Shown piece after piece: positions 5,229 to 22,935 of a DNA stretch of 36,138 nt (the first letter of the stretch is position 1; each line of letters starts with the position of its first letter). The DNA is taken from IMG/VR virus record IMGVR_UViG_3300032362_000034, positions 1 to 36,138 of that record, one strand, 5' to 3'. Origin of the DNA: a virus. The position numbers and the translations under genes are program-made. Below the pieces are notes generated by a model that saw nothing but the letters and a program-made list of their open reading frames with translations, did no database searches and was not told the DNA's origin.

Positions 5229-5768
5229 TTATGGCAATTGCCCTTTCCCGGTATAATCATTGGCAAAAGTTTTCTTAAACATCACATTGGCCACATGATG
5301 GTAAATTACAATTCCTTCCGGATTCATAAATCCAGGGGCAGCCATGCTGCCATTTTCTAGTAAATACTCCATCACATCTTCTGCATTAAATAAATCAAAT
5401 GTTCCCCGCCAAATTGTAGGGACCACGCTGCAACATGATGGGCATTCGCCATCCCAACGCAACACATTAAACAATGAAAACTTTTTTTCCCCGTTTGTTA
5501 GTCCGTACCCGCGCTGTATTCCGCTGCCCCACCATTCTCCAAAATGCCGCCCGACACCAAGAGCCATAAGGTCTTCCTTATGCTCGTAAGCCCACGTGGA
5601 AAATCCAAAATTATCATCTTCTGGAGATAGCCACCGGTTTCTGCTACCGGTAAAAAAACCTCCATCCTCGGTTATAAGAATTTGTGCATTAGTACCATCA
5701 AGCTTTTCAGTAACAATGATTTCCCGACTATACCGAGGTATCGAGGGAAAAGGTAAAAAAACAGACAT
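5229..5768 (-). CDS. RNA ligase family protein (Rnl2-like)
   Basis: A 179-residue protein of the covalent nucleotidyltransferase group. Motif I is EKLDGTN, with Lys22 as the predicted AMP acceptor. Further on come a GEWWGSGIQRGYG motif, PEGIVIYH (motif IV) and MFKK (motif V). It lacks the extra C-terminal domain of full-length T4 Rnl2, so it is a minimal ligase. The start at 5768 is chosen because GGAGG stands five bases before it; an upstream in-frame ATG at 5792 has none. It is the last gene of the leftward recombination operon. It may seal RNA nicks or repair cleaved tRNA, a known phage answer to host anticodon nucleases; substrate not shown. Confidence 0.8.
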   Translation of the reverse strand: MSVFLPFPSIPRYSREIIVTEKLDGTNAQILITEDGGFFTGSRNRWLSPEDDNFGFSTWAYEHKEDLMALGVGRHFGEWWGSGIQRGYGLTNGEKKFSLFNVLRWDGECPSCCSVVPTIWRGTFDLFNAEDVMEYLLENGSMAAPGFMNPEGIVIYHHVANVMFKKTFANDYTGKGQLP

Positions 5769-5818
5769 ATCAGCCTCCAGTACAAAAATCAAAAGTTACG
5801 GCGCGTCTATCCTTCTTA

Positions 5819-6289
5819 TCAGTAGTCGGTACCTCCTTTTTGCAAATGATGTGGGTAAACGCCTTCCTTAAAAATAATATTTTCCTCTGCTCCTATTTGG
5901 TGAATTACGTCAATTAAAATTGATGCTTGCTCAATAGAAATCCGAGTTTCGCTCCACGGAACAATAATTCCTTTCAAGGTGTCAAAAGGGTACCCCTTGT
6001 CTATAGCCACACACTTGCAATAATATTTCATAGTATCAAACTGGTTGCCGGTTTCAACACATAGCTGCTGTATGTGGCCATTAATGTGTGCGTTTTGACT
6101 TTCCGGCCCCGTGGTTCTGTGTTTAGTAGGCAAACTAATTGTCACATCATAGCAATCTGATGACGATTTTATTCCTTCCTCAAAAAGGCGTTGTGCATCA
6201 CGAATCATAAATGGGTCGAGATCGAACGCTATTTTTGTAGATGTCCCGAGCCTAATACGTTTAGCCGCAGGCAAAAAAACATCTGTCAT
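5819..6289 (-). CDS. NinB-like recombination-associated protein
   Basis: A 156-residue protein, start ATG 6289 behind GGAGGG and overlapping the previous stop (ATGA). A central SQNxHINGHIQQ segment and a later WSETRISIEQASILIDVIH segment resemble in order and spacing the conserved parts of lambda NinB, a mediator acting with the recombination system. Position among an exonuclease and an annealing protein supports a recombination role. The likeness is weak and seen by eye only; conserved phage protein of unknown function is the safe call. Confidence 0.5.
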   Translation of the reverse strand: MTDVFLPAAKRIRLGTSTKIAFDLDPFMIRDAQRLFEEGIKSSSDCYDVTISLPTKHRTTGPESQNAHINGHIQQLCVETGNQFDTMKYYCKCVAIDKGYPFDTLKGIIVPWSETRISIEQASILIDVIHQIGAEENIIFKEGVYPHHLQKGGTDY

Positions 6290-6888
6290 AAATATCCCTC
6301 CGCCGTCGCTATTGCCCTGGAAATAGATGCATTTAACCGGGAAATAAAATTCTCGTCTCTCGGTATACGAACAACCAATAGTTTTTCTTCAGCGTTAGGG
6401 TCAAAAGAGACTAAGTCCCACCATTCACGCCCTGTTACCATCATAGCCCCTTGAACCTGAGCCATATATCTATGAGAAAAAAAATCCACGTTTTGCAAGT
6501 ATTTTTTATGAGTTTTTGGCAGTGGGCATTTAAACTCAACGCCACCGGATTCACCTATTAACCCGTCTGGAGACACCCCTACCCATTCGTTTAACTCAAC
6601 AAAACCTATCTTAACTACACTATTCCCTGTGGATTTTTCATATTCATCACAGGCATTTTCTTCTTGGGCTATCCCCCATAGCATGGGCCCGGAAGCGTAA
6701 CCACAAAGCACAGGCACCCCAGTTTTCTTTTCCTGTACAACCCTGGAAATAAGTTTTACTTGCGTGGCAGTAACTTTTTCTGGTGGTTTTGGGCAAACCA
6801 TTAGTGCGGAAAAATCTGAGCCAGTAAAATGCCCAGACCTAGCTAAATACCAGGCGGTGGAACGTTGTGGAACATTATGATATTTCAT
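6286..6888 (-). CDS. YqaJ / lambda-Exo family recombination exonuclease
   Basis: A 200-residue protein with the expected blocks in order: QRSTAWYLARSGHFTGSDF near the N-terminus, GIAQEENACDEYE near residue 72, then GVSPDGLIGESGGVEFKCP carrying the catalytic D...ExK, and YMAQVQGAMMVTG with the Gln typical of this PD-(D/E)xK subfamily. Members degrade one strand of duplex DNA and feed the product to a partner annealing protein, here encoded immediately upstream with a 14-base overlap. Full length for the family. Confidence 0.9.
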   Translation of the reverse strand: MKYHNVPQRSTAWYLARSGHFTGSDFSALMVCPKPPEKVTATQVKLISRVVQEKKTGVPVLCGYASGPMLWGIAQEENACDEYEKSTGNSVVKIGFVELNEWVGVSPDGLIGESGGVEFKCPLPKTHKKYLQNVDFFSHRYMAQVQGAMMVTGREWWDLVSFDPNAEEKLLVVRIPRDENFISRLNASISRAIATAEGYL

Positions 6889-7330
6889 CTGTGTATTTAG
6901 TTCCGTTCCAGCTACCCATATAAATGTCAGCCGCCACGCCGATCATTTTCATCGCTACCGACAAGGCGTCGGTGACAGCCATTTTATAGGCCTCGTCGTT
7001 TGAAAAAAAACCGCCGCTTTCTTTCGATACTAATTTGCTACCGCCTATTGCTGGAATCGGGGCGCTTGTTTTACTTCCGTCATTTATAAAAAGCCGGACC
7101 ATGGCAAAACACATTTTTTCTCCATCGGCCCCTGATTCAGTCCACAATTTTTCTATTTCGTAACTCCATCCAAAACCACAAAGGCCAAAGGCTTCGGTTA
7201 TAACCTTTATACGCCACTGCGGCTTAATATCGGTCATGCCGCGCAATCGCCCCCCGGAAATAGTCTTTAAAACTTCTTTAGGCGGGCGAGAAAGAAAATT
7301 GTAAACTTCGATGCTGGGGTTAATTTCCAT
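6875..7330 (-). CDS. Rad52-like single-strand annealing protein
   Basis: A 151-residue protein with LRGMTDIKPQWRIKVITEAFG near the start, GWSYEIEK, and a C-terminal NDEAYKMAVTDALSVAMK helix. This order is typical of Rad52/Sak-type phage recombinases, which anneal complementary single strands. Partnering with the downstream YqaJ-type nuclease gives a two-component recombination system like Exo/Beta. ATG 7330 has AGGAGG upstream. It is shorter than human Rad52 but normal for the phage Sak group. Confidence 0.8.
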   Translation of the reverse strand: MEINPSIEVYNFLSRPPKEVLKTISGGRLRGMTDIKPQWRIKVITEAFGLCGFGWSYEIEKLWTESGADGEKMCFAMVRLFINDGSKTSAPIPAIGGSKLVSKESGGFFSNDEAYKMAVTDALSVAMKMIGVAADIYMGSWNGTKYTDEIS

Positions 7331-8013: not shown

Positions 8014-8778
8014 GTGAAGTGGTTTAAGCATGATACTGATGCCAGCTTTGATGCGAAGGTAAAAAAACTTATTTTCCGCCACGGAGCAGTTGGGTATGCT
8101 GTATACTTTCACTGCCTCGAGCTTATAGCTGGGAATATAAGTGAAACTGACATAACATTTTCGCTGGAACATGACTATGAGACGATAGCTGACAACTTAA
8201 AAATTCCCGGGGACGAAAATAAAAATTCTGCGGACACGGTGGCCGAAATTATTGCAACACTTGTTGAACTTGGATTGTTTGAAGTAAAAAATGATAGAAT
8301 TTGCTGCTTAAAATTGTTGTCCAGGCTAGATACATCCATGACGTCTAATTCTTTACTTAGAAAGACTATATCAAGCGCAAAGGAGAGTCATGACTCAGTC
8401 ATGACTGAGTCATGCAAGAATAGAATAGATAAGAATAGAATAGATAAGATAAATATATACTTGAGCGAGTTTGATACCCTTTGGGACTTATGGCCAAGGA
8501 AGGTCGCAAAGAAGGCGGCCGAGAAAGCTTTTATTTCTGTCAGAAAGAAAGGAATTGAGTTTGATACATTATCCAGATGCGCTGACAGATATTTGACTGT
8601 TTGCAAGCGGGATATGCGACCAGAAAAATTTATTCTGCACCTTGCAACCTTTTTGAACTCGCGGTATATTGAGTATATGCAAGAACCTTGCGTGTACGAG
8701 CCTAAGCTGTGTGTGCCTGATGATGGCATGGCGGAAATTGTCGCCCGGCACAACGAGAGCATCGAGGAGGTTATATGA
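8014..8778 (+). CDS. Replication initiation protein (DUF4373 N-terminus)
   Basis: A 254-residue protein. Residues 1-110 match the DUF4373 (Lin1244/Lin1753) type: KWFKHDTDASFDAKVKKL, then GAVGYAVYFHCLELI, a winged-helix-like domain of phage replication initiators. A charged linker follows, with the repeat KNRIDKNRIDK. The C-terminal part (FDTLWDLWPRKVAKKAAEKA onward) resembles the helicase-loader end of phage O-like proteins. GTG 8014 is chosen because DUF4373 proteins usually begin at MKWFKHD and GGGGGTGAG stands just before; an upstream ATG lies inside the terminator. It likely loads the DnaB helicase encoded at 12.7 kb. Confidence 0.8.
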   Translation: MKWFKHDTDASFDAKVKKLIFRHGAVGYAVYFHCLELIAGNISETDITFSLEHDYETIADNLKIPGDENKNSADTVAEIIATLVELGLFEVKNDRICCLKLLSRLDTSMTSNSLLRKTISSAKESHDSVMTESCKNRIDKNRIDKINIYLSEFDTLWDLWPRKVAKKAAEKAFISVRKKGIEFDTLSRCADRYLTVCKRDMRPEKFILHLATFLNSRYIEYMQEPCVYEPKLCVPDDGMAEIVARHNESIEEVI

Positions 8779-9308
8779 CGCTCACCTACACTGCCGCTGA
8801 CATTACGGCACTACGACCCTGTCCCGACTGGACCCAGGTGCGTGTCGAACGGACGATGCGTGGCCGCGCGCTCACGCTCGCGCAGATGTTGCGCCTACGC
8901 TCCGTCCCCGCTGCCGACAGGGTCTGGCTCGGATGTCGATTGATGAGCCCAGCGCAACGGACTCGCTGGCTGACCGTTGTCGTACAACGCGCTGTTGAGA
9001 CGCACGCCCTCCACTGCGGGGTCCCGGAGGTCGAGACATGGGCACAGCTTTGGCTATCAGGAGCGGATCGTTCCGCAGGCTCCGCCTGGGACGCCTCCGC
9101 CGCCTCCACTGCCTTTGCCGCCTTTGCCGCCTTTGCCGCCTGCGCCGCCTGGGCCGCCGCCGTCTCAGCCTCAGCCTCCGCCGCCTCCACCGCCTGGGCC
9201 GCCGTCTCCGCCGCCAGGGCCGCCGTCTCCGCCTTCAGTGGCGCTGCCGCTGAGCGTAAGCGCCAGGTGCGCGACATGGTGGACATCCTTGAGGAGGCGG
9301 CAGCATGA
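8775..9308 (+). CDS. GC-rich Ala-repeat protein, probably recently acquired
   Basis: A 177-residue protein whose ATG overlaps the previous stop. Residues 1-100 resemble the N-terminal part of a phage/mobile-element family of unknown role (ALTLAQMLRLRSVPAADRVW). Residues about 100-160 are low complexity: Ala in runs broken by Phe, Trp or Ser. GC content and codon choice (GCC, TCC, CGC) differ sharply from the AT-leaning neighbours on both sides, which suggests transfer from another genome. Proline-rich and minus-strand open frames over the same bases are by-products of the repeat. Confidence 0.65.
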   Translation: MTLTYTAADITALRPCPDWTQVRVERTMRGRALTLAQMLRLRSVPAADRVWLGCRLMSPAQRTRWLTVVVQRAVETHALHCGVPEVETWAQLWLSGADRSAGSAWDASAASTAFAAFAAFAACAAWAAAVSASASAASTAWAAVSAARAAVSAFSGAAAERKRQVRDMVDILEEAAA

Positions 9309-9382
9309 CTATCCCCGAGGTGCTGGCGGTGTTTGTGCTTGTCATTGCAGTTTTTGTCATGCTTACAACCGGCCCCCGATGA
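9305..9382 (+). CDS. 25-residue single-pass membrane peptide
   Basis: Begins at ATG 9305, overlapping the stop of the Ala-repeat gene (ATGA), with GAGGAGG six bases upstream. It translates to a short polar start (MTIPE) and one hydrophobic helix up to MLTT, ending GPR. The good binding site and coupled start argue for real translation. No family is recognised. Confidence 0.5.
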   Translation: MTIPEVLAVFVLVIAVFVMLTTGPR

Positions 9383-9389
9383 GGGGCTT

Positions 9390-9473
9390 ATGCGGATGCG
9401 CATAAGAGATGTTAGGTCTATTCTTGCAAGGTTCAATAAATCGAACCTTGACTGCGAAAGGAGTTGTAAATGA
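9390..9473 (+). CDS. 27-residue basic peptide spanning the cassette junction
   Basis: ATG 9390 follows GAGGGG, and its stop overlaps the next ATG (ATGA). The peptide is Arg/Lys rich. The predicted cassette boundary (G9411) falls inside it, so its front half belongs to phage DNA and its back half to the cassette leader. It may be a junction by-product rather than a gene. Confidence 0.3.
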   Translation: MRMRIRDVRSILARFNKSNLDCERSCK

Positions 9474-9679
9474 TTGGAGATGTTACGATTAACGGGAATC
9501 AAGTCTACGTCGAAGTGAATGAAAAAGGCACTTTGCGAAAACTCCCAAAACCAAACCAGTGGAGGCTTCTCAGGCTTTTGGTATTGAAGGCTTTTGGAAA
9601 ATACAAGCATCCACAAGAGGTTATCGAGTACCTAACAACTGCTTCAACTGGACAGCCGGACAAGCCGTCTGCCAGTTAA
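9470..9679 (+). CDS. Cassette-1 hypothetical protein
   Basis: A 69-residue protein with AAGGAG six bases before ATG 9470. The first 22 residues look like beta strands (VTINGNQVYVEVNEKG), followed by a helix with KPNQWRLLRLLVLKAFGKY. It ends in a polar Ser/Thr/Pro tail. The tail and stop (9677-9679) fall inside the attC site, as is usual for integron cassettes. No known family. Confidence 0.6.
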   Translation: MIGDVTINGNQVYVEVNEKGTLRKLPKPNQWRLLRLLVLKAFGKYKHPQEVIEYLTTASTGQPDKPSAS

Positions 9680-9692
9680 GCAAATGTTCGTA
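9630..9692 (+). other. attC site 1
   Basis: R'' ACCTAAC (9630-9636), spacer AACTG, L'' CTTCAACTGG, a loop, L' CCAGTTAAG, spacer CAAAT and R' beginning GTT (9686). L'' and L' pair perfectly apart from one extra C in L'', the extrahelical base that IntI reads on the folded bottom strand. The R' after the cut (TTCGTA) belongs to the next cassette. Confidence 0.85.
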
Positions 9693-9749
9693 ACTGCGTT
9701 ACACCGACAAAGCGCCAAGTTTTTGGCACAGATTAAACGGAGGTAGAAG

Positions 9750-9926
9750 ATGCCTGTTTTCAGATCAGAAGATGTTAAAGATTGGAACGACAACAGAAAG
9801 AAAGAAGAGTGTTTATGGTGCTGGGGCCATGGCTACGGTAATTGTGACCTGTGTGTTTTACACAATGGTGCCAAAAACACCGAACAACAGGTTCAAGCGG
9901 ATAGTCCCTCCGGGCCTACCGCTTAA
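9750..9926 (+). CDS. Cassette-2 zinc-finger-like protein
   Basis: A 58-residue protein from ATG 9750 with GGAGG seven bases upstream. It has one compact Cys cluster, C21xxC24 and C32xxC35 with a Trp/Gly/His-rich turn between, likely a zinc site. An Asp/Asn/Lys-rich N-terminus precedes it. The stop (9924-9926) lies inside attC 2. A longer frame overlapping it (9772-10017) has no binding site and crosses the attC, so this one is preferred. Confidence 0.65.
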   Translation: MPVFRSEDVKDWNDNRKKEECLWCWGHGYGNCDLCVLHNGAKNTEQQVQADSPSGPTA

Positions 9927-9939
9927 CCAAATGTTGGAT
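9879..9939 (+). other. attC site 2
   Basis: R'' ACCGAAC (9879-9885), spacer AACAG, L'' GTTCAAGCGG, a loop, L' CCGCTTAAC, spacer CAAAT and R' GTTGGAT (9933-9939). The arms pair except for the one extra C, at the same place as in site 1. The G in R'' departs from the consensus but complements the C in this cassette's own start. Confidence 0.87.
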
Positions 9940-10017
9940 GGACGCTTTAACCGCATAAAACCTGCGGTTTTACACGGATACGCGCCAAGTTTTTGGCAGG
10001 GATTAAAGGGGGAATAA

Positions 10018-10290
10018 ATGAAGATAGAAATTGAAGTCACAGAAGATGAAGTAAAAAGTGCAATTGAGCGCAAAATCAAAACAGCAATAGCAGAACACGC
10101 AAACGGGTATTGGGTTGAACAGGGCATAAAGGACACAATAAAAAAGCATTGGCAGGATACGGTTGAAAAGCTTGTAAAAGAAGAGGTGGAAAACTCACCA
10201 AAAATGCGGGACATGATTCAAAAATCCCTTGAAAACAAGATCAGGGCGCAGTTGAATGTCATGTTAAAAGAGAAGAAACCTGACAACTGA
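10018..10290 (+). CDS. Cassette-3 helical protein
   Basis: A 90-residue protein behind AAGGGGG. Almost all of it is predicted helix with many Lys and Glu: EVTEDEVKSAIERKIKTAI, a central GYWVEQGIKDTIKKHW, then a coiled C-terminal half. No Cys and no membrane segment. Its stop is in the left half of a broken attC (10278-10299). Likely a small cytoplasmic dimer; function unknown. Confidence 0.65.
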   Translation: MKIEIEVTEDEVKSAIERKIKTAIAEHANGYWVEQGIKDTIKKHWQDTVEKLVKEEVENSPKMRDMIQKSLENKIRAQLNVMLKEKKPDN

Positions 10291-10299
10291 TTCAAGCCG
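10278..10299 (+). other. Broken attC, left half only
   Basis: R''-like ACCTGAC, spacer AACTG and L''-like ATTCAAGCCG are present in the right order, but no L' or R' follows. The DNA runs straight into the next gene leader (GTATTG...CAATAC hairpin, then CACGGA). A deletion between two cassettes would produce this, leaving them to move as one unit. Confidence 0.65.
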
Positions 10300-10350
10300 T
10301 GAACGCGTATTGCTTGATGCCAATACACGGACGGCGAACGGAGGGAAAGT

Positions 10351-10656
10351 ATGCATATAAACCAGAATGATCTGGAGCATCTAAAAGACATGATGCAACA
10401 AGGGAAACTGACAGCCGATGAAGCAAATATCCGCAAAGTGGAAATGCAGCGTGTTTTGTTAGTTATTGGAGCTGTGCCAGCAAGCGTTCGCAAGGCACTT
10501 AATGCAGGAGTAAAAGCCGGGAGGCTGGAACACAAAAAGCGAGACGGTAGAAAGCCGGAAGTGTTTTACAAAAAAGGGTTTGAATATATTGCAAATGCAG
10601 AGCGCAATCAATATGAGCGTGATTGCGTTAAGGCAATATCAGTAGTGTGCATCTAA
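10351..10656 (+). CDS. Cassette-3 second protein
   Basis: A 101-residue protein behind GGAGGG. It begins with an acidic/Gln-rich helix (NQNDLEHLKDMMQQGKLTADEA); a helical middle follows, ending VRKALNAGVKAGRLEHKKRDGRKPEVFYKKGF. That last stretch, a small helix and a basic turn before a strand, is reminiscent of a winged-helix nucleic-acid binder. This is only a visual impression. The stop (10654-10656) falls in the R'' box of attC 4. Confidence 0.65.
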   Translation: MHINQNDLEHLKDMMQQGKLTADEANIRKVEMQRVLLVIGAVPASVRKALNAGVKAGRLEHKKRDGRKPEVFYKKGFEYIANAERNQYERDCVKAISVVCI

Positions 10657-10700
10657 CAATGAGTTCAAGCGGACTAAAGCCGCTTAACTCAATGTTGGAT
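10651..10700 (+). other. attC site 4 (complete, textbook form)
   Basis: R'' ATCTAAC (10651-10657) fits RYYYAAC; spacer AATGA; L'' GTTCAAGCGG; 7-base loop; L' CCGCTTAAC; spacer TCAAT; R' GTTGGAT (10694-10700) fits GTTRRRY. Arms pair with a single extra C. The layout is very close to the attC of aadA-type resistance cassettes. Confidence 0.92.
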
Positions 10701-10758
10701 GGACGCTTTAGCCGCGTAACTTGTTACGCGGACACGCGCCAAATTGGTGGAGGATTTT

Positions 10759-10968
10759 ATGATGGAAATGTTTTGCCCAAAATGTGGTTCGATGTGTAGA
10801 AGTGTAAACCTTAGTTTTGGCGCTATTAGTAATGCTCCAGAAAAATGGGGTGAGGCGTGCATGAATGGATTATGTGGCTGGAAGAATTATCAAATACAAA
10901 CAAAAATTACTAATAACACCGGCGCGCTCGCGTACGTAGATGTGTCAATTTTTGATAACGACATCTAG
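10759..10968 (+). CDS. Cassette-4 zinc-ribbon-like protein with shared C-terminal tail
   Basis: A 69-residue protein starting at ATG 10759 (ATG 10762 is the alternative), with GGAGG five bases upstream. FCPKCGSMC at the start and ACMNGLCGW in the middle supply five Cys for a zinc ribbon. The last 12 residues (AYVDVSIFDNDI) are nearly identical to the end of the unrelated DUF4116-repeat protein at 21961, and the DNA likeness continues past the stop into the AGGAGG of the next gene. The tail was probably exchanged between the two genes. Confidence 0.65.
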   Translation: MMEMFCPKCGSMCRSVNLSFGAISNAPEKWGEACMNGLCGWKNYQIQTKITNNTGALAYVDVSIFDNDI

Positions 10969-10972
10969 GAGG
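10946..10972 (+). repeat. Stop/RBS module, copy 1
   Basis: 27 bases identical (in reverse complement) to the core of two copies at 21954-21984 and 22905-22935. It holds the last codons IFDNDI, a TAG stop and AGGAGG, which serves as the binding site for the gene at 10980. About 15 bases upstream of it are also alike in the 21.9 kb copy. Confidence 0.85.
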
Positions 10973-10979
10973 CCGGCGA

Positions 10980-11198
10980 ATGTTGGGGAAAGCAAAAGAG
11001 CAGCAAATTAGGGTGGTGTTACAAGAAATACTAATGTCGGCTCAAAACCATCCGCTTTTCTCCGGGTGGCAGGATGAAATTACTATAGAAAAAGTGATTG
11101 AAGCCGGCGGAGATACTTGTTTTGTTACTTGTGACGTCGCCTGGAAGGCAAAAGAAGCTTTGGAGCTGCTAACCCCAGAGCACCCGGAGGGGCTATGA
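10980..11198 (+). CDS. Small hypothetical protein
   Basis: A 72-residue protein; its ribosome binding site is supplied by the repeated stop/RBS module. Sequence is helical at the start (KAKEQQIRVVLQEILMSAQ) and then alpha/beta with two Cys (DTCFVTCDVAWKA). Its end overlaps the next ATG (ATGA). No family is recognised. Confidence 0.65.
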   Translation: MLGKAKEQQIRVVLQEILMSAQNHPLFSGWQDEITIEKVIEAGGDTCFVTCDVAWKAKEALELLTPEHPEGL

Positions 11199-11453: not shown

Positions 11454-11788
11454 AACTGACCGCAAAAAAAGCAAAAGAGCGCGAGCTTTTAATTTGGAAT
11501 TATTGTAAGGAGCATCCAGTTTTTTCTATAGACCATTTACCGTATGCAATAAAAAAGCTAATTAAAAATTATCCAAACAAGTCTCCCTTGTGTGCTTTTT
11601 TTAGGCCATCAATTAATGTTAGGGGCAGTTGCCGGAACTGCCCTATTTTTAAGCCACACACATCTACGCTTAGCTGCGCATATTATTCAGCCTGGGTTTC
11701 AGCCAAAACTCCGCAGGCACGTATTAAAGCGGCTGAAGTTCTTGCAAGCCTTCTTTTGGCTTGGGAGGCGCCTGATGATGAAGCCTAG
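11450..11788 (+). CDS. Hypothetical early protein with Cys pairs
   Basis: A 112-residue protein. ATG 11450 overlaps the preceding stop and is preferred to an in-frame ATG at 11429 without binding site. N-terminal helix with KKAKERELLIWNYCKEH, then a central CAFF...GSCRNCPIF...SCAYY block that could bind metal, and a helical end (AAEVLASLLLAWEA). The codons for GSCRNC coincide with a terminator-like hairpin (11623-11650). Function unknown. Confidence 0.6.
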   Translation: MKLTAKKAKERELLIWNYCKEHPVFSIDHLPYAIKKLIKNYPNKSPLCAFFRPSINVRGSCRNCPIFKPHTSTLSCAYYSAWVSAKTPQARIKAAEVLASLLLAWEAPDDEA

Positions 11789-14803: not shown

Positions 14804-15103
14804 ATGAGCAACAAGGAAATGCTTTCGGAAATATATTTTGACCCCGAAATCACAATTTTTTTAGAAACCCTTTCTAAAAAGGCCTATAACAGGGAGAGGG
14901 AGTATTTTAAAGACCAGGGCATTGATGTTGATGATTTTATTCAGGAAATGTGGTGTGAGCTTTTTGAGGAAAAGGGTCTTACCAATAATAGAGCATTGTG
15001 TTTTAGGATGATTGAATGTAATATTTTAGACTGGGTAAGGAATGTAAAAAGAAGAGCGGGAATAGCGTCGATGTTATGCCTAGACGAGATTGGAGAACTT
15101 TAG
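14804..15103 (+). CDS. Sigma70 region-2-like protein
   Basis: A 99-residue protein. DVDDFIQEMWCELFE corresponds to the core-binding region 2.2 of ECF/sigma70 factors (DLxQExF pattern), and RMIECNILDWVRNVKRRAG to region 2.3-2.4, which melts and reads the -10 element. There is no region 4, so it cannot contact a -35 box itself. There is no Shine-Dalgarno before ATG 14804, only TATATATAT, so translation may be low. It could redirect host polymerase to late promoters, though this is inferred. Confidence 0.6.
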   Translation: MSNKEMLSEIYFDPEITIFLETLSKKAYNREREYFKDQGIDVDDFIQEMWCELFEEKGLTNNRALCFRMIECNILDWVRNVKRRAGIASMLCLDEIGEL

Positions 15104-16368
15104 TGACAGAGGCTGAGCTTAGGACAAATTCCAGCGACTATAACGCGGCAACCTCGGTCACTATGGGGTACCAAGAAATACGAAACTCTGCTGAAAACTG
15201 GCGCACCATAATGGGGTACATAAAATCTGGCAAAGCCAGGGATTTGAACGATGAGCCCAAGAAAAGAGGAGAGCCGGTAATACTGACTGGGTCAGGGCCA
15301 TCACTTGATGCCGCCATCTTGCCCATGAAATCGTGGCGTGGTGGTGTTATCGCTCACTACTCTCAGGCCCCAACCCTAATGCATTATGGAATCGAGCCGG
15401 ACTACATAGTGGCCTTAGACGCAGTTTGTAACTGGGAAGGTCTTATGGGGCCCGAATGGGGAAAAAGCAAAACAAAACTAATTTGCCATCCCGGCATATG
15501 GCCGTCGCTCATCGAAAACTGGCCCAACGAAATTCTGCTTTACCGACAAAACTTAGGTGTTAAAGATGGGTTTGGAGTAAGTGAACAGCGGGTGATGTAT
15601 GCTGAGAGGCACGGAACACTTGAGGACGCGCTAGCATCAAGAGTGATGCTGGAACCTAAGATCAAAACCGAGTTGACTAGTTTTGCTTGCACTCCTCCAA
15701 TGCAATTGTTTGCTGCTCATTTGCTTGGCTATGGGCCCGTATTTCTTTCCGGGTGCGACTTTGCATATCTTGAAGACAGGGAGAGGTTTTCGGCATACAA
15801 TTGGGCGACAAACCAGCTGGAAAAGAGAGTACTACCCGAAAGGGAATATATAAGAACGATTAACGGGCTCAAAACAGACCCCCTCCACATGTACTACAAG
15901 AAGAATTTTATATCTGCTTGTAGGCTGTCCATGCAACAGGTATACACTACAGACCATGGGGCCGTTACCGAGGTGCCGTTTTATGAAATAGAGTATGTCG
16001 TAAAGACCAATGGGAAAGTAAAAAGCATCGCATCCGAGCTAAGAGCCCGGAGATATGAGAGATATTTGGCCATCGTAGGGCTTTATGTTGTCGAGTTTGC
16101 TCAAGGGTATACATTTGTGGAAGTAAACAACCCTTTTCCGGACTTGGAGAATTATTTAGATAGTGCGAATAGGAAGCTCAAATGCACCACCTGCGGAATT
16201 GAGCTTACATCAAGCGGGCAAGGAGACCACACAAAGGGGAATTGTCCAAAGTGCCAAAAGAAGACGTTGGTTTTTGCATCGCCGGTTGATAAAGAGAAAA
16301 ACATGAAACGATTTCGGGAACTCTGCGCATATGTAGAGTGGTGGAAAGACCAGCAAGCTCCGAGGTAA
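15103..16368 (+). CDS. DUF115/MptE-like protein, Maf-type glycosyltransferase candidate
   Basis: A 421-residue protein. GTG 15103 is chosen: it overlaps the preceding stop (TAGTG) and has GGAG upstream. The core has LTGSGPSLDAAILPM, AHYSQAPTLMHYGIEPDY and VALDA, the signature of DUF115, found in MptE and in Maf motility accessory factors that transfer pseudaminic or legionaminic acid to flagellin. FLSGCDFAY follows in the second half. The C-terminus carries a zinc ribbon (CTTCG...CPKCQ, about residues 365-395), unusual for Maf. It heads an operon making CMP-pseudaminic acid, which favours the glycosyltransferase reading over pterin metabolism. Confidence 0.7.
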   Translation: MTEAELRTNSSDYNAATSVTMGYQEIRNSAENWRTIMGYIKSGKARDLNDEPKKRGEPVILTGSGPSLDAAILPMKSWRGGVIAHYSQAPTLMHYGIEPDYIVALDAVCNWEGLMGPEWGKSKTKLICHPGIWPSLIENWPNEILLYRQNLGVKDGFGVSEQRVMYAERHGTLEDALASRVMLEPKIKTELTSFACTPPMQLFAAHLLGYGPVFLSGCDFAYLEDRERFSAYNWATNQLEKRVLPEREYIRTINGLKTDPLHMYYKKNFISACRLSMQQVYTTDHGAVTEVPFYEIEYVVKTNGKVKSIASELRARRYERYLAIVGLYVVEFAQGYTFVEVNNPFPDLENYLDSANRKLKCTTCGIELTSSGQGDHTKGNCPKCQKKTLVFASPVDKEKNMKRFRELCAYVEWWKDQQAPR

Positions 16369-16373
16369 GACCT

Positions 16374-17249
16374 ATGGAAAGCCCGGTTAAAAGCGAGCAA
16401 ATGGTTGCAAGGCAGGAAAATAAACTGGTTGAAAATGGCAAAACGGTTCTAATAACCGGAGGAACCGGATTTTTGGGGCAAGCCCTCACTAAATGGCTTT
16501 TGGAATTTACAACTTACAACATAATAGTATTTAGCAGAGATGAATTTAAACAATGGGTAATGGAATCTGAAATAGCCGACCCTCGGGTGGAATATGTAAT
16601 AGGGGACGTTCGAGATAAAGAAAGAATAACTGATGTAGCTAAAGGAGTCGATTATATTATCCACGCAGCAGCATTAAAGCATGTTTGGTGTGGAGAACAG
16701 CATCCGTATGAAGTAGTTCAGACAAACATCACCGGGACATACAACGTTGTACAGGCTGCAAAAAAAAATGGCGCGCTGGTAATTTTTGTGTCTTCCGATA
16801 AGGCCGTTTTCCCGGCCAATCTTTATGGTGCTACTAAAATGGTGGCTGAAAAGATTGTATTACAATCAGGAAACAATGTTGTTCGGTACGGGAATGTTTT
16901 TGGGTCTCGCGGGAGTGTCTTGCACAAGTTTAATGAGTGGGCTGAAAAAGGTAAACATTTCCAAATCACTGACAAACGGATGACCAGATTTGTTATTACA
17001 ATAGACCAAGCCATAAAACTAATAATGCGGTCTATCGGCATGGCGAGGGGGAGCATAAATATTCCCGACCTGCCAGCTATCAGAATCGTGGATTTAGCAA
17101 TGGCCTTCGATCCAAGGGCCACAATCGAGGAGATCGGTATTCAGCCGGGGGAAAAGCTACACGAGATGCTAAGCGAGTCTCAGTCCAGTGAGCATGCTAG
17201 GAAATTATCAGTCTCCGAGATACAGGAGCTTATAAATGCAACCATGTGA
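16374..17249 (+). CDS. pseB: PseB: UDP-GlcNAc 4,6-dehydratase (5-epimerising)
   Basis: A 291-residue extended-SDR enzyme doing the first step of pseudaminic acid synthesis. NAD-binding TGGTGFLG at 28-35, then HAAALKHV, SSDKAVFPANLYGATK with catalytic Asp142/Lys143 and Tyr151/Lys155, VRYGNVFGSRGS, and GEKLHEML. All are diagnostic for PseB rather than generic epimerases. The start ATG 16374 follows GAGGT. It has an extra N-terminal polar lead of about 20 residues and a somewhat short C-terminus compared with Helicobacter PseB (about 330). Confidence 0.9.
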   Translation: MESPVKSEQMVARQENKLVENGKTVLITGGTGFLGQALTKWLLEFTTYNIIVFSRDEFKQWVMESEIADPRVEYVIGDVRDKERITDVAKGVDYIIHAAALKHVWCGEQHPYEVVQTNITGTYNVVQAAKKNGALVIFVSSDKAVFPANLYGATKMVAEKIVLQSGNNVVRYGNVFGSRGSVLHKFNEWAEKGKHFQITDKRMTRFVITIDQAIKLIMRSIGMARGSINIPDLPAIRIVDLAMAFDPRATIEEIGIQPGEKLHEMLSESQSSEHARKLSVSEIQELINATM

Positions 17250-17260
17250 ATGGAGCAAAA

Positions 17261-17902
17261 ATGTCACCGTATGATGTCGTGGCAGCCCTTGAGGAAAGGG
17301 TGGCCGAATATTCTGGAGCCCCATATGCGGTGGCATGCGATTCTTGCACTAATGCCCTTTTGCTTTCTCTCAAGTATCGGTTTTGGCAGGGATACGAAAA
17401 GGTTGTGTCTTTACCAAAACATACTTACGTTGGTGTAGCGTACGCGGTGGTGAATGCTGGCGGGGTATGTGAGTTTCACGATGAGCCATGGGAGGGGGCG
17501 TATGAACTTAAAAACGTTGATGTCATTGATTCTGCCAGACGTTTTACGAGTGATATGTTTGTACCTGGGACTCTATATTGTCTCTCTGCTCATTGGGGGA
17601 AACATTTAAAGATAGGCCGTGGCGGATTTGTTCTAACCGATGACATAGATGCTGCAACAGTATTGAGGCGAATGCGATTCGACGGACGCTGTGCAGGAGT
17701 TCCTCCAAGCGAGGACAAGTTTTTGTTTCCGGGGTTCCACTGCTATATGTTACCCGAAGAAGCTGCGAGAGGTCTCATGCTTATGAATTATATGCCTAGC
17801 GATAACGCCGATTTGCCGTGGGATAATTACCCTGATTTAAGCAAGTTCCAAATATTTACCCGTCAAGCAACACGATATGATAGTTACGAAGGATCATTTT
17901 AA
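17261..17902 (+). CDS. pseC: PseC-like aminotransferase, shortened
   Basis: A 213-residue member of the DegT/DnrJ/EryC1 PLP enzymes. CDSCTNALLLSL binds the cofactor phosphate region; DVIDSARRF occupies the place of the ring-stacking Asp segment; SAHWGKHLKIGRGG includes the expected Schiff-base Lys114. The family is about 370-390 residues; the C-terminal small domain is mostly missing, although the stop is clean and the next gene overlaps it. It may be a minimal enzyme, one that needs a partner, or an inactive remnant. Start 17261 (GGAG upstream) is preferred to GTG 17246. Confidence 0.75.
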   Translation: MSPYDVVAALEERVAEYSGAPYAVACDSCTNALLLSLKYRFWQGYEKVVSLPKHTYVGVAYAVVNAGGVCEFHDEPWEGAYELKNVDVIDSARRFTSDMFVPGTLYCLSAHWGKHLKIGRGGFVLTDDIDAATVLRRMRFDGRCAGVPPSEDKFLFPGFHCYMLPEEAARGLMLMNYMPSDNADLPWDNYPDLSKFQIFTRQATRYDSYEGSF

Positions 17903-18531
17903 TGGCAGAGATAATTCTTGACCTCGGCTCTGGTAATACGTGCCGCAATGATAAGAAAACTGTCGAAACCATGATACGCCAGATTGCAGAAGTCGATACC
18001 GGCAGACATGAGATTGTGCTAAAATGGCAGCTGTTCGAGAAGGCGGAACCGAATGTCCCCTTAGACAAACAGATATTTGAATATGCCTACACTTTGGCTC
18101 AGCATTTAGGGTATAAAACAACTGCAAGTGTGTTTGACTACAAAAGCATGCACCATCTTATGAAATATGATGTTCCATTTGTGAAAATAGCAAATAACCC
18201 GCAATATTACCATTTGATAGACAAAATTGCCCAAATGCAGCTTGATATTCCCGTGTATGTTTCAATTCCAACAAACGACGTATCTTTCTTTTATCTAAAT
18301 ATCACATACCTTGCGTGTATTTCTAAATACCCAGCCACGATACAAGATTACGCCGAAAAATTCCCACAGTTGGCGCTAAGACACGTTTCTGACCATACCG
18401 TGGGGTGGGACTTGTATAATACTCACAAGCCTAAAATCATAGAAAAACACTTTGTGCACAAAAGACTGGAAGGGAATCCAGATGCCGGAATGTTTGCGGT
18501 AACGCAGAAGGAACTTGCTGAAATACTATGA
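17902..18531 (+). CDS. pseI: PseI/NeuB-like nonulosonic acid synthase, barrel only
   Basis: A 209-residue protein with the NeuB TIM-barrel signature. It has DLGSGNTCRND at the start, LKWQLF (the substrate-loop KxQ), TASVFD, VKIANN and, near the end, SDHTVGWD and IIEKHFVHKRLEGNPD, the metal and PEP-binding strands. NeuB enzymes condense PEP with a 2,4-diamino-hexose. Full-length members (about 340) carry a C-terminal SAF domain that completes the partner active site; it is absent here, as in some short phage homologues. ATG 17902 shares its A with the preceding TAA. Confidence 0.8.
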   Translation: MAEIILDLGSGNTCRNDKKTVETMIRQIAEVDTGRHEIVLKWQLFEKAEPNVPLDKQIFEYAYTLAQHLGYKTTASVFDYKSMHHLMKYDVPFVKIANNPQYYHLIDKIAQMQLDIPVYVSIPTNDVSFFYLNITYLACISKYPATIQDYAEKFPQLALRHVSDHTVGWDLYNTHKPKIIEKHFVHKRLEGNPDAGMFAVTQKELAEIL

Positions 18532-19022
18532 TTACTTTGCGTGAATTGAAAATTGATGACATGGAGTTGATCAGAAAGTGGCGGAACATGTGCCTGTCTA
18601 CTTTGAGGACGTCGTTCCCACTTACAAAGGAACAACAAGAAGAGTGGTATATAAACGAAATTTGCAATCGAAATAGCAGGACAAGGTTTTGGGGGATAGA
18701 AGCAAACGACGAATTGATTGGATATGGCGGTATAGAGAATATACAGTGGGAAAACAGGATAGGAGAAGTATCGTTGTTAATTAACCCAGACAAGCAACAT
18801 ATGGGTTATGGCAAAGAAGCAGCTCATGCAATTATTAAACAAGCCTTTAGCACAATAAATTTGCATACAGTATTTGCGGAATGTTATGCAGACAATTTTG
18901 CTACGCATTTTTGGGATGATATATTTGCGGATGGATATAAAACCGTTATGCCAAACAGAAAATTTAGCGGTGGCAAATACGTCCACTCGATCTACTATTC
19001 AGTGAGCAATCCACATGCGTAA
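18528..19022 (+). CDS. pseH: PseH-like GNAT N-acetyltransferase
   Basis: A 164-residue GNAT enzyme. The N-terminal LRELKIDDMELIRKWRN is typical of RimJ/PseH-type members; GYGGIENI and GEVSLLINPD form the central strands, and the acetyl-CoA loop is HMGYGKEAA. In the Pse pathway PseH acetylates the 4-amino group of the PseC product. Overlaps neighbours on both sides by a few bases. Confidence 0.82.
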   Translation: MITLRELKIDDMELIRKWRNMCLSTLRTSFPLTKEQQEEWYINEICNRNSRTRFWGIEANDELIGYGGIENIQWENRIGEVSLLINPDKQHMGYGKEAAHAIIKQAFSTINLHTVFAECYADNFATHFWDDIFADGYKTVMPNRKFSGGKYVHSIYYSVSNPHA

Positions 19023-19581
19023 TGTGTGTTATATTCAGGCAAGAGGCGGATCAAAAAGGTTTCCAAACAAGAATATAGCTCTATGGAACGGAGTCCCAGT
19101 ACTTGGAAAAACAATAGTAACAGCAATTGGAACCGGATTATTTGACCATGTCTGTGTCTCAAGCGACTCTGAACAGATTTTGTCCATCGCTCAGCAGTTT
19201 GGCGCTATGCCTATCTGGCGGACACCCGAAAACAGTAACGACACGGCGATTGACACCGATGTCGCCATGGAGGTAATGGAATATTTCAAAAACTATGATT
19301 ATGCATGCAAATTATACCCATGCGCCCCTCTCCTTACTGGCGAGGAAATTATTTTATCGTACGGGAAACTACTTGCGTGCAAGTGCGAGGCTGTTAAAAG
19401 CGTCGATGAAGACAGAAATGATGCTGGGGCAATATACTGGTTTGATGTGGAAAGATTTAAACGTGTCGGGTGGGTGTTAGATTCTTTGCGCTGGGACGAA
19501 TATGTGTTACCGGTTTGTCAAGACATAAATACTGTGGAAGATTTTGAGGAAGCTCGAAGAAAGGCCGGGTATGACATCTGA
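19015..19581 (+). CDS. pseF: PseF-like CMP-nonulosonate cytidylyltransferase
   Basis: A 188-residue nucleotidyltransferase. IQARGGSKRFPNKNI is the CTP-binding signature; VCVSSDSEQI and LYPCAPLL follow as the metal/base-binding strands. It activates the nine-carbon sugar with CTP. A little shorter than Helicobacter PseF (about 230). The C-terminal DINTVEDFEEA is the usual end of the family. Confidence 0.85.
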   Translation: MRNVCYIQARGGSKRFPNKNIALWNGVPVLGKTIVTAIGTGLFDHVCVSSDSEQILSIAQQFGAMPIWRTPENSNDTAIDTDVAMEVMEYFKNYDYACKLYPCAPLLTGEEIILSYGKLLACKCEAVKSVDEDRNDAGAIYWFDVERFKRVGWVLDSLRWDEYVLPVCQDINTVEDFEEARRKAGYDI

Positions 19582-20224
19582 ACAGGAATGTTTTTGGGCA
19601 GGTGAGTTTGGGAATGACTACACAGCCAGAAACTGCGGCGACAAAATAGTAGAAAATAATATTGATTTTTTTAGCAACGCACTTACAAAATGTGGTGAAA
19701 TTAAAAGCATTCTCGAAATTGGGTGTAATAACGGAATGAACTTGATGGCGCTAGAATATATTATGCCATTTGCAACAAAAACGGGGATAGATGTAAATGC
19801 GCAAGCGCTATATGACCTTTCTAACAATTTTGAAATTCGAGAGCTAGACCAGCCTAAAACCTACAAAGAGGGAATACTTGGATTTAGCCCTAAAAAAGTT
19901 AATGATGACTGCTCCGTAGAGCAAGAAACATATGAGTTGGTTGTTACGAAAGGGCTGCTTATTCATTGCAGCCCAGATCACATGTGTGAAATATACGAAA
20001 AACTATACACGTTGACTTCTAGATATATACTTATTGCGGAATATTACAATCCAACGCCGGTATCCATCCCATATCGAGGCTATGGAAACAAGCTATTTAA
20101 GCGCGACTTTGCTGGCGAAATGCTAGCCAAATATAGCGATTTGAAATTGATAGATTACGGGTTTGTGTACCACCTTGACAAATACCCTCAGGATGATGTA
20201 ACTTGGTTTTTGCTGGGGAAATAG
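19571..20224 (+). CDS. Pseudaminic-acid-associated methyltransferase
   Basis: A 217-residue SAM methyltransferase of the type that accompanies Pse gene sets. The opening EQECFWAGEFGNDYTARN is the recognisable family start. LEIGCNNGMNL is the SAM motif I, GIDVNAQAL motif II and LVVTKGLLIHCSPDHM motif III-IV. It probably methylates the finished sugar or an intermediate. Start ATG 19571 lies inside the end of the cytidylyltransferase gene. Confidence 0.8.
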   Translation: MTSEQECFWAGEFGNDYTARNCGDKIVENNIDFFSNALTKCGEIKSILEIGCNNGMNLMALEYIMPFATKTGIDVNAQALYDLSNNFEIRELDQPKTYKEGILGFSPKKVNDDCSVEQETYELVVTKGLLIHCSPDHMCEIYEKLYTLTSRYILIAEYYNPTPVSIPYRGYGNKLFKRDFAGEMLAKYSDLKLIDYGFVYHLDKYPQDDVTWFLLGK

Positions 20225-20247
20225 GTGTACTTTTAATGGGGGGCATT

Positions 20248-20607
20248 ATGGGCACGGCATGGATCGAAGTGATTGCGCTAGACACTCGTACACGAGAGGC
20301 GAGCGCGGTGGGGACTGTAGACGCAGATGGACTTGCAAGGGTGGAAGATGCCTGCAAGGACCATATCGGCGGGATAGACCGCGCCCCAAATGGAAGTATG
20401 CTTCCCAAAAGGGATTTTTGCATATTATCTGCCTTTAGCGGATGTTCGCGCGACGACATATATGCAATGTCGGCCGACGATCTTCGGGAAGCGGTGATAC
20501 GCGTGTTTTCACTTCCTTGCGAAGAGTTTTCGCCTGGTGATCCGTGGTATGGGGTGTTCATGCTACCGGACGCCGCCGCCGCCGCCTTTCGTAGACGGGC
20601 CGTTTAG
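20248..20607 (+). CDS. GC-rich hypothetical protein inserted in the Pse operon
   Basis: A 119-residue protein; ATG 20248 with GGGGGG five bases upstream, or ATG 20236 with none. Acidic, with two Cys, and ending in a run of Ala followed by Arg (AAAAAFRRRAV). GC content and codon use (GAC, GCC, CGC) stand out from the Pse genes on both sides, so it was likely inserted into the operon. No family is recognised. Confidence 0.55.
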   Translation: MGTAWIEVIALDTRTREASAVGTVDADGLARVEDACKDHIGGIDRAPNGSMLPKRDFCILSAFSGCSRDDIYAMSADDLREAVIRVFSLPCEEFSPGDPWYGVFMLPDAAAAAFRRRAV

Positions 20608-20647
20608 GGCCAAGCAGAAATAGTGCAGTAATTTGCCAGGAGTGAGA

Positions 20648-21685
20648 ATGAGATTTTGCAGCACCTGCGGTTTTATCCTTGGGACGCGCCCAGGATTGTT
20701 GGAAAAAGATGGAGTTTGCCAAGCATGCATAAACTCGGAGAAGAAAAAAACCCCCGAGTATTTAGCTATGTTTGCCGATAGGCAGAGCTGGCTCACACAG
20801 TATATAACGGATAATAAAACAAACAATCGATACGACTGTGTTATAGCTGTGTCGGGCGGCAAAGACAGCCACATGATTGTGCGGCGGCTAATTGAAAACC
20901 ACGGGGTTAAAAACCCCTTGCTTGTTTCTGTCACAGATGAATTTACCCATACGGAAGCTGGGAAAAACAACATAACAAATCTCGTTACAAAATACGATTT
21001 GGACCTAATTACATTTAGATGCAAGCCGAAAACCTTTAAACGCGAAACAAAAAATGATTTTTTAGAATCTTTGCATCCGCTAAAATGGATTGAGTCGCAA
21101 ATATACAAAAAACCTGTGGAGATAGCTAAAAAGTATGGGATAAAGCTGGTGTTTTTTGGGGAAAATAGCGCATTTGAATATGGAACTAGCGAAGAGCTTG
21201 AAATATTCCACCCCGAAAGCGATGAGGAAACAAAAATAATTTTCCTTGGCTCTATTTATCCATATTCGATTTCAGATTCTCTAAAAGCGGCCAGGGAAAT
21301 TGGTTTTAAAGACCTTGACGAGTTCCGGGAATGGGAGCGCGAGGGGAGCATCGAGCAATTTACGCAAATTGATTCTGTTGGGTACATTATCCAGTTATGG
21401 ACAAAGTTTGTGAAATACGGATTCCAGCGCGTCTCAGATATAGCATGTCGGTTTGTTAGGGAAGGGAAACTTACTAAAGAGCAGGCCGCAAAGCTTATTA
21501 CCGAGCATGATTATAAAGTTGACCCTGAAGCAAAAATGGATTTTTGCAAAACCATCGGGCTAACCCCGGCTCAGTTTGATGATGCGGTTGACATGCATGC
21601 AAACCCCAGCTTGGTTTGCAAAGATGCAAAGGGCCGGTGGAAAAGAATAGAGGCATTGCGGCCAAGGTTTGTACGTCGCCCGTGA
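20648..21685 (+). CDS. pseA: PseA/WbpG-like N-acetyl-sugar amidotransferase
   Basis: A 345-residue protein. Cys4, Cys7, Cys24 and Cys27 make an N-terminal zinc site. An ATP-pyrophosphatase PP-loop AVSGGKDS stands near residue 70. FFGENSAFEYG and the later helical region are typical of the WbpG/PseA group. PseA turns a Pse acetamido group into acetamidino; WbpG does the like in lipopolysaccharide. AGGAG lies five bases before ATG 20648. Its last codons overlap the 5' end of the tRNA gene. Confidence 0.85.
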   Translation: MRFCSTCGFILGTRPGLLEKDGVCQACINSEKKKTPEYLAMFADRQSWLTQYITDNKTNNRYDCVIAVSGGKDSHMIVRRLIENHGVKNPLLVSVTDEFTHTEAGKNNITNLVTKYDLDLITFRCKPKTFKRETKNDFLESLHPLKWIESQIYKKPVEIAKKYGIKLVFFGENSAFEYGTSEELEIFHPESDEETKIIFLGSIYPYSISDSLKAAREIGFKDLDEFREWEREGSIEQFTQIDSVGYIIQLWTKFVKYGFQRVSDIACRFVREGKLTKEQAAKLITEHDYKVDPEAKMDFCKTIGLTPAQFDDAVDMHANPSLVCKDAKGRWKRIEALRPRFVRRP

Positions 21686-21749
21686 AGCTCTACGGTAGAG
21701 CGGCTGGCCTGTAACCAGCGGGTACCGGGTTCAATTCCCGGTGCGGGCT
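21678..21749 (+). tRNA. tRNA-Thr (anticodon TGT), atypical
   Basis: A full cloverleaf folds: acceptor arms 21678-21684/21742-21748, D-stem GCTC/GAGC, anticodon stem GCTGG/CCAGC, T-stem CCGGG/CCCGG with loop TTCAATT. The 7-base anticodon loop CCTGTAA reads TGT, but base 33 is C rather than the near-invariant U. Bases 8 and 14 are A and T in place of T and A, a covarying swap of the core tertiary pair. No CCA is encoded. Eight bases overlap the end of pseA. Confidence 0.8.
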
Positions 21750-21883: not shown

Positions 21884-21957
21884 ATAGTGTCCTTTTGGGC
21901 GTCCTCAAACTCATAAATGGCCAGCACCACGGCGTGCTCAACCAAGACCTCGCCGAC
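21884..21957 (-). pseudogene. Duplicated 3' end of the 115-residue gene
   Basis: Minus-strand codons for VGEVLVEHAVVLAIYEFEDA followed by QKDTI and a stop overlapping the next ATG. The first 59 bases (21957-21899) are identical to bases 22996-22938 inside the intact gene. Having no start of its own, it looks like the original end of that gene, cut off by the DUF4116 gene now lying between. Confidence 0.65.
21899..21957. repeat. 59-bp direct repeat, left copy
   Basis: Identical to 22938-22996. Together with the 31-bp module copies it brackets the DUF4116-repeat gene. Confidence 0.95.
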
Positions 21958-21984
21958 CTCCTAGATGTCGTTATCAAAAATTGC
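21954..21984 (-). repeat. Stop/RBS module, copy 2
   Basis: 31 bases identical to 22905-22935; the 27-base core also occurs at 10946-10972 in reverse complement. Here it encodes the IFDNDI end and stop of the DUF4116-repeat protein. Confidence 0.92.
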
Positions 21985-22902
21985 CACGTCCACGTACGCG
22001 ATAGCCACCGCGTTCTGCCGCACGGCAGCAAGACACACCGCCTCGGTTTGGTCCATTACGTACTCAAGAGCGTAACCGTTTTGCTGCACGGCAGCAAGAC
22101 AAACCGCCTCGGTCTGGGCATTAACGTGCTTGAGTGCGTAACCGTTTTGCTGCACGGCCGCGCGACACACCGCCTCGGTTTGGTCATTGACGTACTCAAG
22201 CGCGTGCCCGTTCTGCTTAACGGCCGCGAGACACACCTCCTCGGTTTTGTCCTTGACGCACTGAAGCGCGTAACCGTCCTGCTTAACAGCAGCAAGGCAC
22301 AGTGCCTCTGTCTGGTCATTGACGTACTCAAGCGCGTGCCCGTCCTGTTGCACGGCAGCGAGGCACATCGCATCGGTTTTGTCCTTGACGTACTGAAGCG
22401 CGTAACCGTTCTGTTGCACGGCAGCAAGACACACTGCCTCGGTTTGGGCATTGACGTACCGGAGCGCGTAACCGTCCTGCTGAACGGCAGCGCGACACAC
22501 CGCCTCGGTTTGGTCATTGACGTACTCAAGCGCATAACCTTTTTGCCGCACGGCAGCAAGGCACACCTCCTCGGTCTGGTCCTTGACGTACCGGAGCGCA
22601 TAGCCGTCCTGTTGCACGGCTGCAAGACACACTGCCTCGGTTTGGTCCTTAACGTGCTTGAGCGCGCACCCGTCCTGCTTAACGGCAGCAAGGCACAGTG
22701 CCTCTGTCTGGTCCTTGACGTACTCAAGCGCGTGCCCGTTTTGCCGCACGGCCGCGAGACACAGTGCCTTGGTCTGGTCCTTGACGTACCGGAGCGCATA
22801 GCCGTCCTGCTTAACGGCTGCGAGTGCCCGGGCTCCAGTTTTGTGCCGGGGCAAATCTGTTTCGTTAGCATTGACTGCTGCCAAAAATTCTGAAAGTTTC
22901 AT
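21961..22902 (-). CDS. DUF4116-type repeat protein, 12 units of 22 residues
   Basis: A 313-residue protein with a 28-residue lead, then twelve 22-residue units on the pattern AVxQxGxALxYVxxQTEAxCLA and a partial thirteenth ending in the exchanged tail AYVDVAIFDNDI. DUF4116 repeats form helical-pair solenoids in bacterial and viral proteins of unknown function. Each unit carries one conserved Cys. The gene is much richer in GC than the phage backbone and points against its neighbours. Its AGGAGG comes from copy 3 of the stop/RBS module. Probably a protein-binding scaffold acquired by transfer. Confidence 0.75.
   Translation of the reverse strand: MKLSEFLAAVNANETDLPRHKTGARALAAVKQDGYALRYVKDQTKALCLAAVRQNGHALEYVKDQTEALCLAAVKQDGCALKHVKDQTEAVCLAAVQQDGYALRYVKDQTEEVCLAAVRQKGYALEYVNDQTEAVCRAAVQQDGYALRYVNAQTEAVCLAAVQQNGYALQYVKDKTDAMCLAAVQQDGHALEYVNDQTEALCLAAVKQDGYALQCVKDKTEEVCLAAVKQNGHALEYVNDQTEAVCRAAVQQNGYALKHVNAQTEAVCLAAVQQNGYALEYVMDQTEAVCLAAVRQNAVAIAYVDVAIFDNDI
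22027..22818 (-). repeat. 66-bp tandem repeats (12 units)
   Basis: The coding repeats are also visible as DNA repeats. Neighbouring units are not the most alike: pairs such as 5/10 and 6/11 share more, which hints at block duplication of five units. Confidence 0.8.
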
Positions 22903-22904
22903 AT

Positions 22905-22935
22905 CGACCTCCTAGATGTCGTTATCAAAAATTGC
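22905..22935 (-). repeat. Stop/RBS module, copy 3
   Basis: 31-bp copy that here supplies AGGAGG to the DUF4116 gene and a new C-terminus (CNF) to the 115-residue gene. Confidence 0.92.

Follow-up and report, generated by a model that had tools for sequence, protein, structure and literature searches.

Integron-type gene cassettes in a tailed-phage genome share a structured leader and a candidate attachment hairpin with cassettes of other phages

Introduction

Integrons are familiar as tools of bacteria, and cassettes found in phages have been regarded as occasional strays. The 36,138-base virus record analysed here (referred to throughout, at its full length, as the window) holds a run of small genes that end in sites resembling the attC sites of integron cassettes. 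Are these genuine integron cassettes, and if so, how do they come to lie in a phage that shows no integrase of its own?

Phage cassettes have been published before. According to Qi et al. 2023 (PMC9892861), there are 17 CALINs (at least two attC sites with no nearby intI) in phages, so the suggestion of a first-pass annotation of this DNA that such cassettes are very rarely described needs some correction. The same paper reports complete integrons in Vibrio phage Va_90-11-286_p16 and Shewanella phage M16-3, and recombination by IntI1 of five of six tested attC sites of virulent phages, including both sites of phage TJE1. Off-target homologous or illegitimate recombination is suggested there as the route by which phages acquire CALINs. 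What is described here beyond the first-pass annotation is a structured leader, a candidate left attachment hairpin, the match of most cassettes' ends to their own starts and the sharing of cassettes between phages.

Results

A partly decayed cassette array among phage replication genes

The backbone genes of the window include those for large terminase, portal, head and tape-measure proteins and a replicative helicase. Replication genes of the same orientation surround the array, which comprises five small genes, one attC remnant and three intact attC sites, as follows (all on the + strand).

9388–9410, +: candidate attI-like left attachment hairpin, TTATGCG GATG CGCATAA with spacer GAGAT, then G/TT; DNA fold z = −4.7
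9412–9686, +: cassette 1, from TTAGGT through the G of its R' box, delimited by sequence
9470–9679, +: cassette 1 ORF, 69 aa; no family match
9630–9692, +: attC of cassette 1; R' damaged through a deletion in the following leader
9687–9933, +: cassette 2; leader about 17 nt shorter than in contigs L014 and L026
9750–9926, +: cassette 2 ORF, 58 aa; C terminus encoded by attC, likewise in L026
9879–9939, +: attC of cassette 2; filter scan, class 1 model (E = 5e-4) and fold
9933–9987, +: cassette 3 leader, structured; E = 2.6e-14 with model R1 (window excluded from training)
10018–10290, +: cassette 3 ORF, 90 aa; phage contig L003 has a non-cassette homologue (37%)
about 10277–10300, +: attC remnant, the R''-spacer-L'' half fused to a leader-like hairpin (repeat family D1)
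10351–10656, +: cassette 4 ORF, 101 aa; 56% homologue in the attC-less phage contigs L001 and L002
10651–10700, +: attC of cassette 4; 84% identity to a stretch of TJE1 attC1; class 1 model E = 6e-8
10694–10741, +: cassette 5 leader, structured; E = 3.4e-17 with model R1 (window excluded from training)
10759–10968, +: cassette 5 ORF, 69 aa; CxxC motif
10946–10972, +: right junction; 27-nt sequence recurring near 21954–21984 and 22905–22935 on the other strand

The three full attC sites that the first-pass annotation had placed at 9630–9692, 9879–9939 and 10651–10700 are canonical and lie within 1.1 kb. All have the order R''-spacer-L''-loop-L'-spacer-R' with RYYYAAC/GTTRRRY boxes (R' being damaged in one site), R'' ends in AAC and R' starts with GTT, and the L arms are fully paired (8/8) except for one extrahelical C in L'', exactly as had been noted. 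A filter requiring R'' ending in AAC, 8/8 L-arm pairs with one bulge and GTT at R' found these three sites, compared with a mean of 0.15 matches (maximum 1) when the entire window was dinucleotide-shuffled 60 times. Each bottom strand forms an attC-type hairpin with an unpaired (extrahelical) G (z = −5.4, −5.0 and −6.5). Three small genes (ORFs 9470–9679, 9750–9926 and 10351–10656) do terminate within the sites, and the L arms are similar to those of class 1 attC sites, in agreement with their supposed nearness to aadA-type cassettes.

An attC covariance model (R2) was trained on six short class 1 plasmid sites only, the long class 1 sites being left out because they were misaligned by MAFFT. 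This check, which the earlier annotation had proposed, placed two sites well above background (10651–10700, E = 6e-8; 9879–9939, E = 5e-4) and left 9630–9692 unmatched. We attribute the miss to the R' box of that site, GTTCGTA, which is part of the following cassette; about 17 nt are missing from the leader of that cassette when it is compared with L014 and L026. Rfam gave no family match across 9300–11000 at E values up to 1.

Cassette 1 has an R'' box, ACCTAAC, that exactly complements its own start, GTTAGGT, and the R'' of cassette 2, ACCGAAC, matches the start GTTCGGT of its intact relatives. The array is partly decayed. We read the attC remnant as the trace of a boundary that once divided cassettes 3 and 4, and the last cassette (from 10695) has no attC at its end; the right junction is a probable recombination joint that removed it. 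The C terminus of the cassette 5 ORF is common to DUF4116-type genes in the same phage. One of these, a repeat gene at 21961–22902, is built of 66-nt units, and its region holds two copies of a 31-nt end sequence that is found, near-identical and on the opposite strand, at the end of cassette 5.

Neither the general tyrosine recombinase family (PF00589) nor the integron integrase model (TIGR02249) has a match in the window, which makes the array CALIN-like, as proposed. TIGR02249 was also absent from all pool records searched (0/29 and 0/8 further records; positive control 2.5e-150), and PF00589 matched one of 28 records. If the cassettes are still mobile by integron recombination, the enzyme would have to come from the host. 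No promoter-like site was found on the strand that encodes the array genes in the window. These genes, set among replication genes of like orientation, are probably read through. The first-pass annotation had named as a counter-case a related phage carrying the block as ordinary genes; none was found, and two cassette ORFs have distant non-cassette phage homologues.

Elsewhere in the window we noted an RNA ligase family gene (5229–5792), an alanine-repeat-rich gene with no family match (8775–9308) that adjoins the attachment hairpin on its left, and a tRNA-Thr gene with anticodon TGT (21678–21749). A nonulosonic sugar gene set of the pseudaminic or legionaminic type occupies 15076–21685 and comprises MptE-like, Polysacc_synt_2 dehydratase, DegT aminotransferase, short NeuB, GNAT, CMP-transferase-like and methyltransferase genes.

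A structured leader follows the R' box

Comparison of the block with 50,697 phage records by blastn returned a single convincing match, to Tetrasphaera phage TJE1, with 84% identity over an attC site. The likeness between the two phages continues downstream of R' beyond the recombination box, into a leader whose short outer stem has a single bulged A and is separated by an internal loop from an inner hairpin, the whole ending just 5' of the ribosome-binding site. The cassettes of the pool described below share this layout: TTRRRY, the double-stem leader, a ribosome-binding site, a small gene and attC.

A strict pattern for one leader subtype matched 10 viral contigs and had no match in 84,980 prokaryote species genomes. 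In viral contigs, 28 stretches fitted a pattern for the most frequent attC subtype, and at most of these sites the leader architecture follows. Stricter attC patterns found nothing in viral and genome contigs, unlike the leader pattern and the looser attC pattern, which matched viral contigs; plasmid searches gave no match or chance matches of 26 nt only. The leader model R1 matches the window twice, although trained without it, and matches 24 of 32 records searched, a set that includes three non-cassette records. In all, the leader is present in the window, in TJE1 and in more than 20 other phage records. Integron controls (class 1 and Vibrio) gave no match to the model, and neither did the Vibrio phage or four further phage records with published integrons or cassettes. 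No bacterial integron with this leader came to light. Judged from the one strict subtype searched for in bacterial genomes, the leader is likely confined to phages.

Of the 14 pairs in the alignment of 53 distinct leaders, 12 vary on both sides, with a covariation score of 0.502 versus 0.136 when shuffled; although this alignment had been fitted to the model, the starting alignment of 16 leaders shows the same picture. We propose that the leader probably helps to express each gene that stands behind an attC hairpin. G-U pairs are scarce in leader alignment A4, where they fill about 1–2% of paired cells. As this is unusual for RNA, the leader may act as a DNA hairpin or on both strands.

The cassettes belong to a pool found in diverse phages

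R'' exactly complements the start of its own cassette in 45 of 53 pool cassettes (shuffled mean 3.9, maximum 13) and matches the downstream R' in only one of the 53, and insertion of a circular cassette should produce the own-start match, as opposed to a match with the next R'.

The phages that carry the cassettes are of diverse kinds. Virion genes are present in the pool records, their TerL matches are of many kinds, and records other than the window encode baseplate, podovirus-type adaptor, portal and tape-measure proteins, indicating diverse backbones. The backbone of the window is largely unrelated to those of the other carriers (best TerL identity 31%, to genome G001), and a query with DnaB found no relatives. 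The PF03354 terminase model was uninformative, having no matches even in TJE1, which phrog_2 does match. Since some records are duplicates or near-duplicates (G005/G027, G007/G008 and G011/G021), record counts slightly overstate the number of phages.

Most pool cassette products are small. Cassettes of the relatives encode the Mom DNA-modification protein, DNA methylases, the RNA ligase RtcB and phage-type DUF551 and DUF7448 proteins, and one encodes a possible radical SAM protein with a score under the curated cut-off. In L033 (2757–4441), Mom (E = 4e-63) and a DNA methylase occupy neighbouring cassettes. From such genes we conclude that the pool probably supplies counter-defence and host-takeover functions. 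The idea in the first-pass annotation that a host integron delivered cassettes to the phage stands in so far as these are integron cassettes in a phage, but a simple delivery to one phage misses a pool with its own leader and left hairpin.

A candidate attachment hairpin at the left end of the arrays

Arrays of the pool begin on the left at a 7-bp stem with a 4-nt loop and a 5-nt spacer, followed by G/TT. Twenty-one distinct sites give the consensus TTAGGCT-GAAC-AGTCTAA-NNTAT and then GTT, in which TTA...TAA is invariant. The copy in the window (TTATGCG-GATG-CGCATAA-GAGAT, then GTTAGGT; 9388–9417) is nearly the same as that in L084. A search of viral contigs with the hairpin pattern gave 28 matches, 19 of which have a cassette start directly after them and nine no downstream cassette. 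Five of the nine are near-identical copies of one sequence: the hairpin-like site TTATGCAGAACAGTATAATCTAT, followed by GTT, is common to L083, L088, L091, L096 and L098, and these cassette-less sites may be empty sites or coincidence.

Three phages have two arrays apiece, each array beginning at a left hairpin. The related genomes G001, G013 and G017 all retain the hairpin at the left and, at the right, a similar gene in the opposing orientation with its stop codon inside the last R' box; the cassettes in between differ in number and kind. We also noted in three related phages (L042 at 4886, L078 at 18787 and L072 at 7261) that the last R' box provides the stop of an opposing gene of the secreted or membrane type. 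At the spot in G001 orthologous to the second array of G013, both array and hairpin are missing; the hairpin may thus come in with the array instead of waiting as an empty target.

In the attI sites of integrons, an inverted box and a GTTRRRY box flank the crossover. The left hairpin also occupies the left end of the array and has the same pair of boxes on either side of its putative crossover; unlike attI, it is a very short palindrome, has no intI beside it and occurs in several copies per phage. From these sequence features we consider it a candidate site with an attI-like function.

Alternative explanations of the array

One alternative is that the cassettes are shuffled today by the homologous recombination of the phages, with attC and leader serving as linkers between modules and an integrase active only in the distant past. 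The window does carry genes for an Erf-like recombinase and an exonuclease (6286–7330), attC and leader repeats are alike enough to recombine, and a 27-nt repeat joins the right end of the array. One cassette is 97% identical in G002 and G007, genomes that are otherwise unrelated. The two copies differ at the attC apex, suggesting exchange within attC; the shared cassette, at 11487–11899 in L044 and 12182–12589 in L060, differs mainly there, with equal outer boxes and a swapped inner stem. However, the homology between G002 and G007 has its left limit exactly at G/TT, and G007 has no attC upstream of the shared cassette. A first cassette that lies directly at the hairpin is also hard to obtain by homology. 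As a full account we regard homologous shuffling as doubtful, although part of the exchange may proceed by homologous recombination between repeated attC or leader sequences. The alternatives overlap in part, an integrase origin followed by later homologous exchange being one such combination.

Passive capture, in which illegitimate or homologous recombination brings in pieces of host chromosomal integron arrays that are then carried along inertly, appears to us unlikely, and slightly more so. It is the kind of route proposed by Qi et al. 2023 (PMC9892861), and it agrees with phages that have no integrase, with the partial decay of the window array and with the GC content of the TJE1 cassettes (0.468, versus 0.581 in the rest of that genome). 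Against it stand left ends that are non-random and set by a conserved hairpin of fixed geometry, two arrays in each of three phages that all begin at that hairpin, cassette-precise sharing between unrelated phages, and a leader whose tested subtype is absent from 84,980 genomes.

The left hairpin could instead be an ordinary transcription terminator or regulatory hairpin that adjoins the arrays by chance, and the palindrome in TJE1 has been annotated as a putative terminator. The hairpins have no T-run, keep a fixed 7/4/7/5 geometry that ends at G/TT, with TTA...TAA invariant over the 21 distinct sites, and 19 of 28 pattern matches lie exactly at cassette starts, and chance adjacency is accordingly improbable. 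That the sites are intergenic phage repeats merely resembling attC, for which one might cite the missing integrase and the two window ORFs with phage homologues outside cassettes, is effectively refuted by the class 1 model matches, the extrahelical base and box order, the own-start match in 45 of 53 cassettes and the recombination of TJE1 sites with IntI1 reported by Qi et al. 2023 (PMC9892861).

Discussion

We propose that the array consists of integron-type cassettes, that it is a sample of a pool circulating among tailed phages, and that the cassettes are moved in trans by host integron integrases, a reading to which we assign a probability of roughly 0.8. At the level of sequence, the units have attC anatomy and are cassette-precise, their leaders covary, the left hairpin recurs, cassettes have been exchanged between unrelated phages and every record searched has no integron integrase. 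In the infected cell, a host integron integrase, itself hypothetical, would recombine cassette circles through folded bottom-strand attC sites, and the circles would join the hairpin site or the attC sites of the phage at G/TT. Early transcription of the phage would read through the array, and the leader would support expression of the gene behind each attC hairpin. A more far-reaching version, which we hold with only slightly better than even confidence, is that unrelated tailed phages keep a dedicated integrase-less cassette system, made up of a docking hairpin, a leader that makes genes expressible in any slot, attC, and the integrase of whichever host is infected.

Judged by its sequence, the closest known relative of the window array is the CALIN of TJE1 (Qi et al. 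2023, PMC9892861). Both have attC sites (84% identical over the best stretch), the same leader (in three TJE1 cassettes), a start at a hairpin with inverted GTTRRRY boxes and no integrase, whereas the phage backbone and the genes of TJE1 are different. In the part of Qi et al. 2023 (PMC9892861) drawn on here, neither the leader nor a conserved attachment hairpin is discussed for TJE1. P12002L, H101/PH101, MW202573, Va_90-11-286_p16 and M16-3 also have attC sites in phage genomes, but the leader occurs in none of them, and Va_90-11-286_p16, unlike the window, has its own intI. Class 1 cassettes with attC sites of the aadA, catB and aadB type share with the window the box order, short sites of 50–60 nt and similar L arms. 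They differ in having no conserved double-stem leader, in the intI1 and attI1 that adjoin their arrays and in their resistance genes.

The hairpin, leader and attC are precise sequence targets and a search key for further phage cassettes. If phages do share a pool equipped with its own leader and docking hairpin, integron recombination would be a routine means by which they trade small accessory genes, among them DNA-modification and RNA-repair genes directed against host defences. The integrons of bacterial hosts would then serve as an exchange platform for the counter-defence genes of phages.
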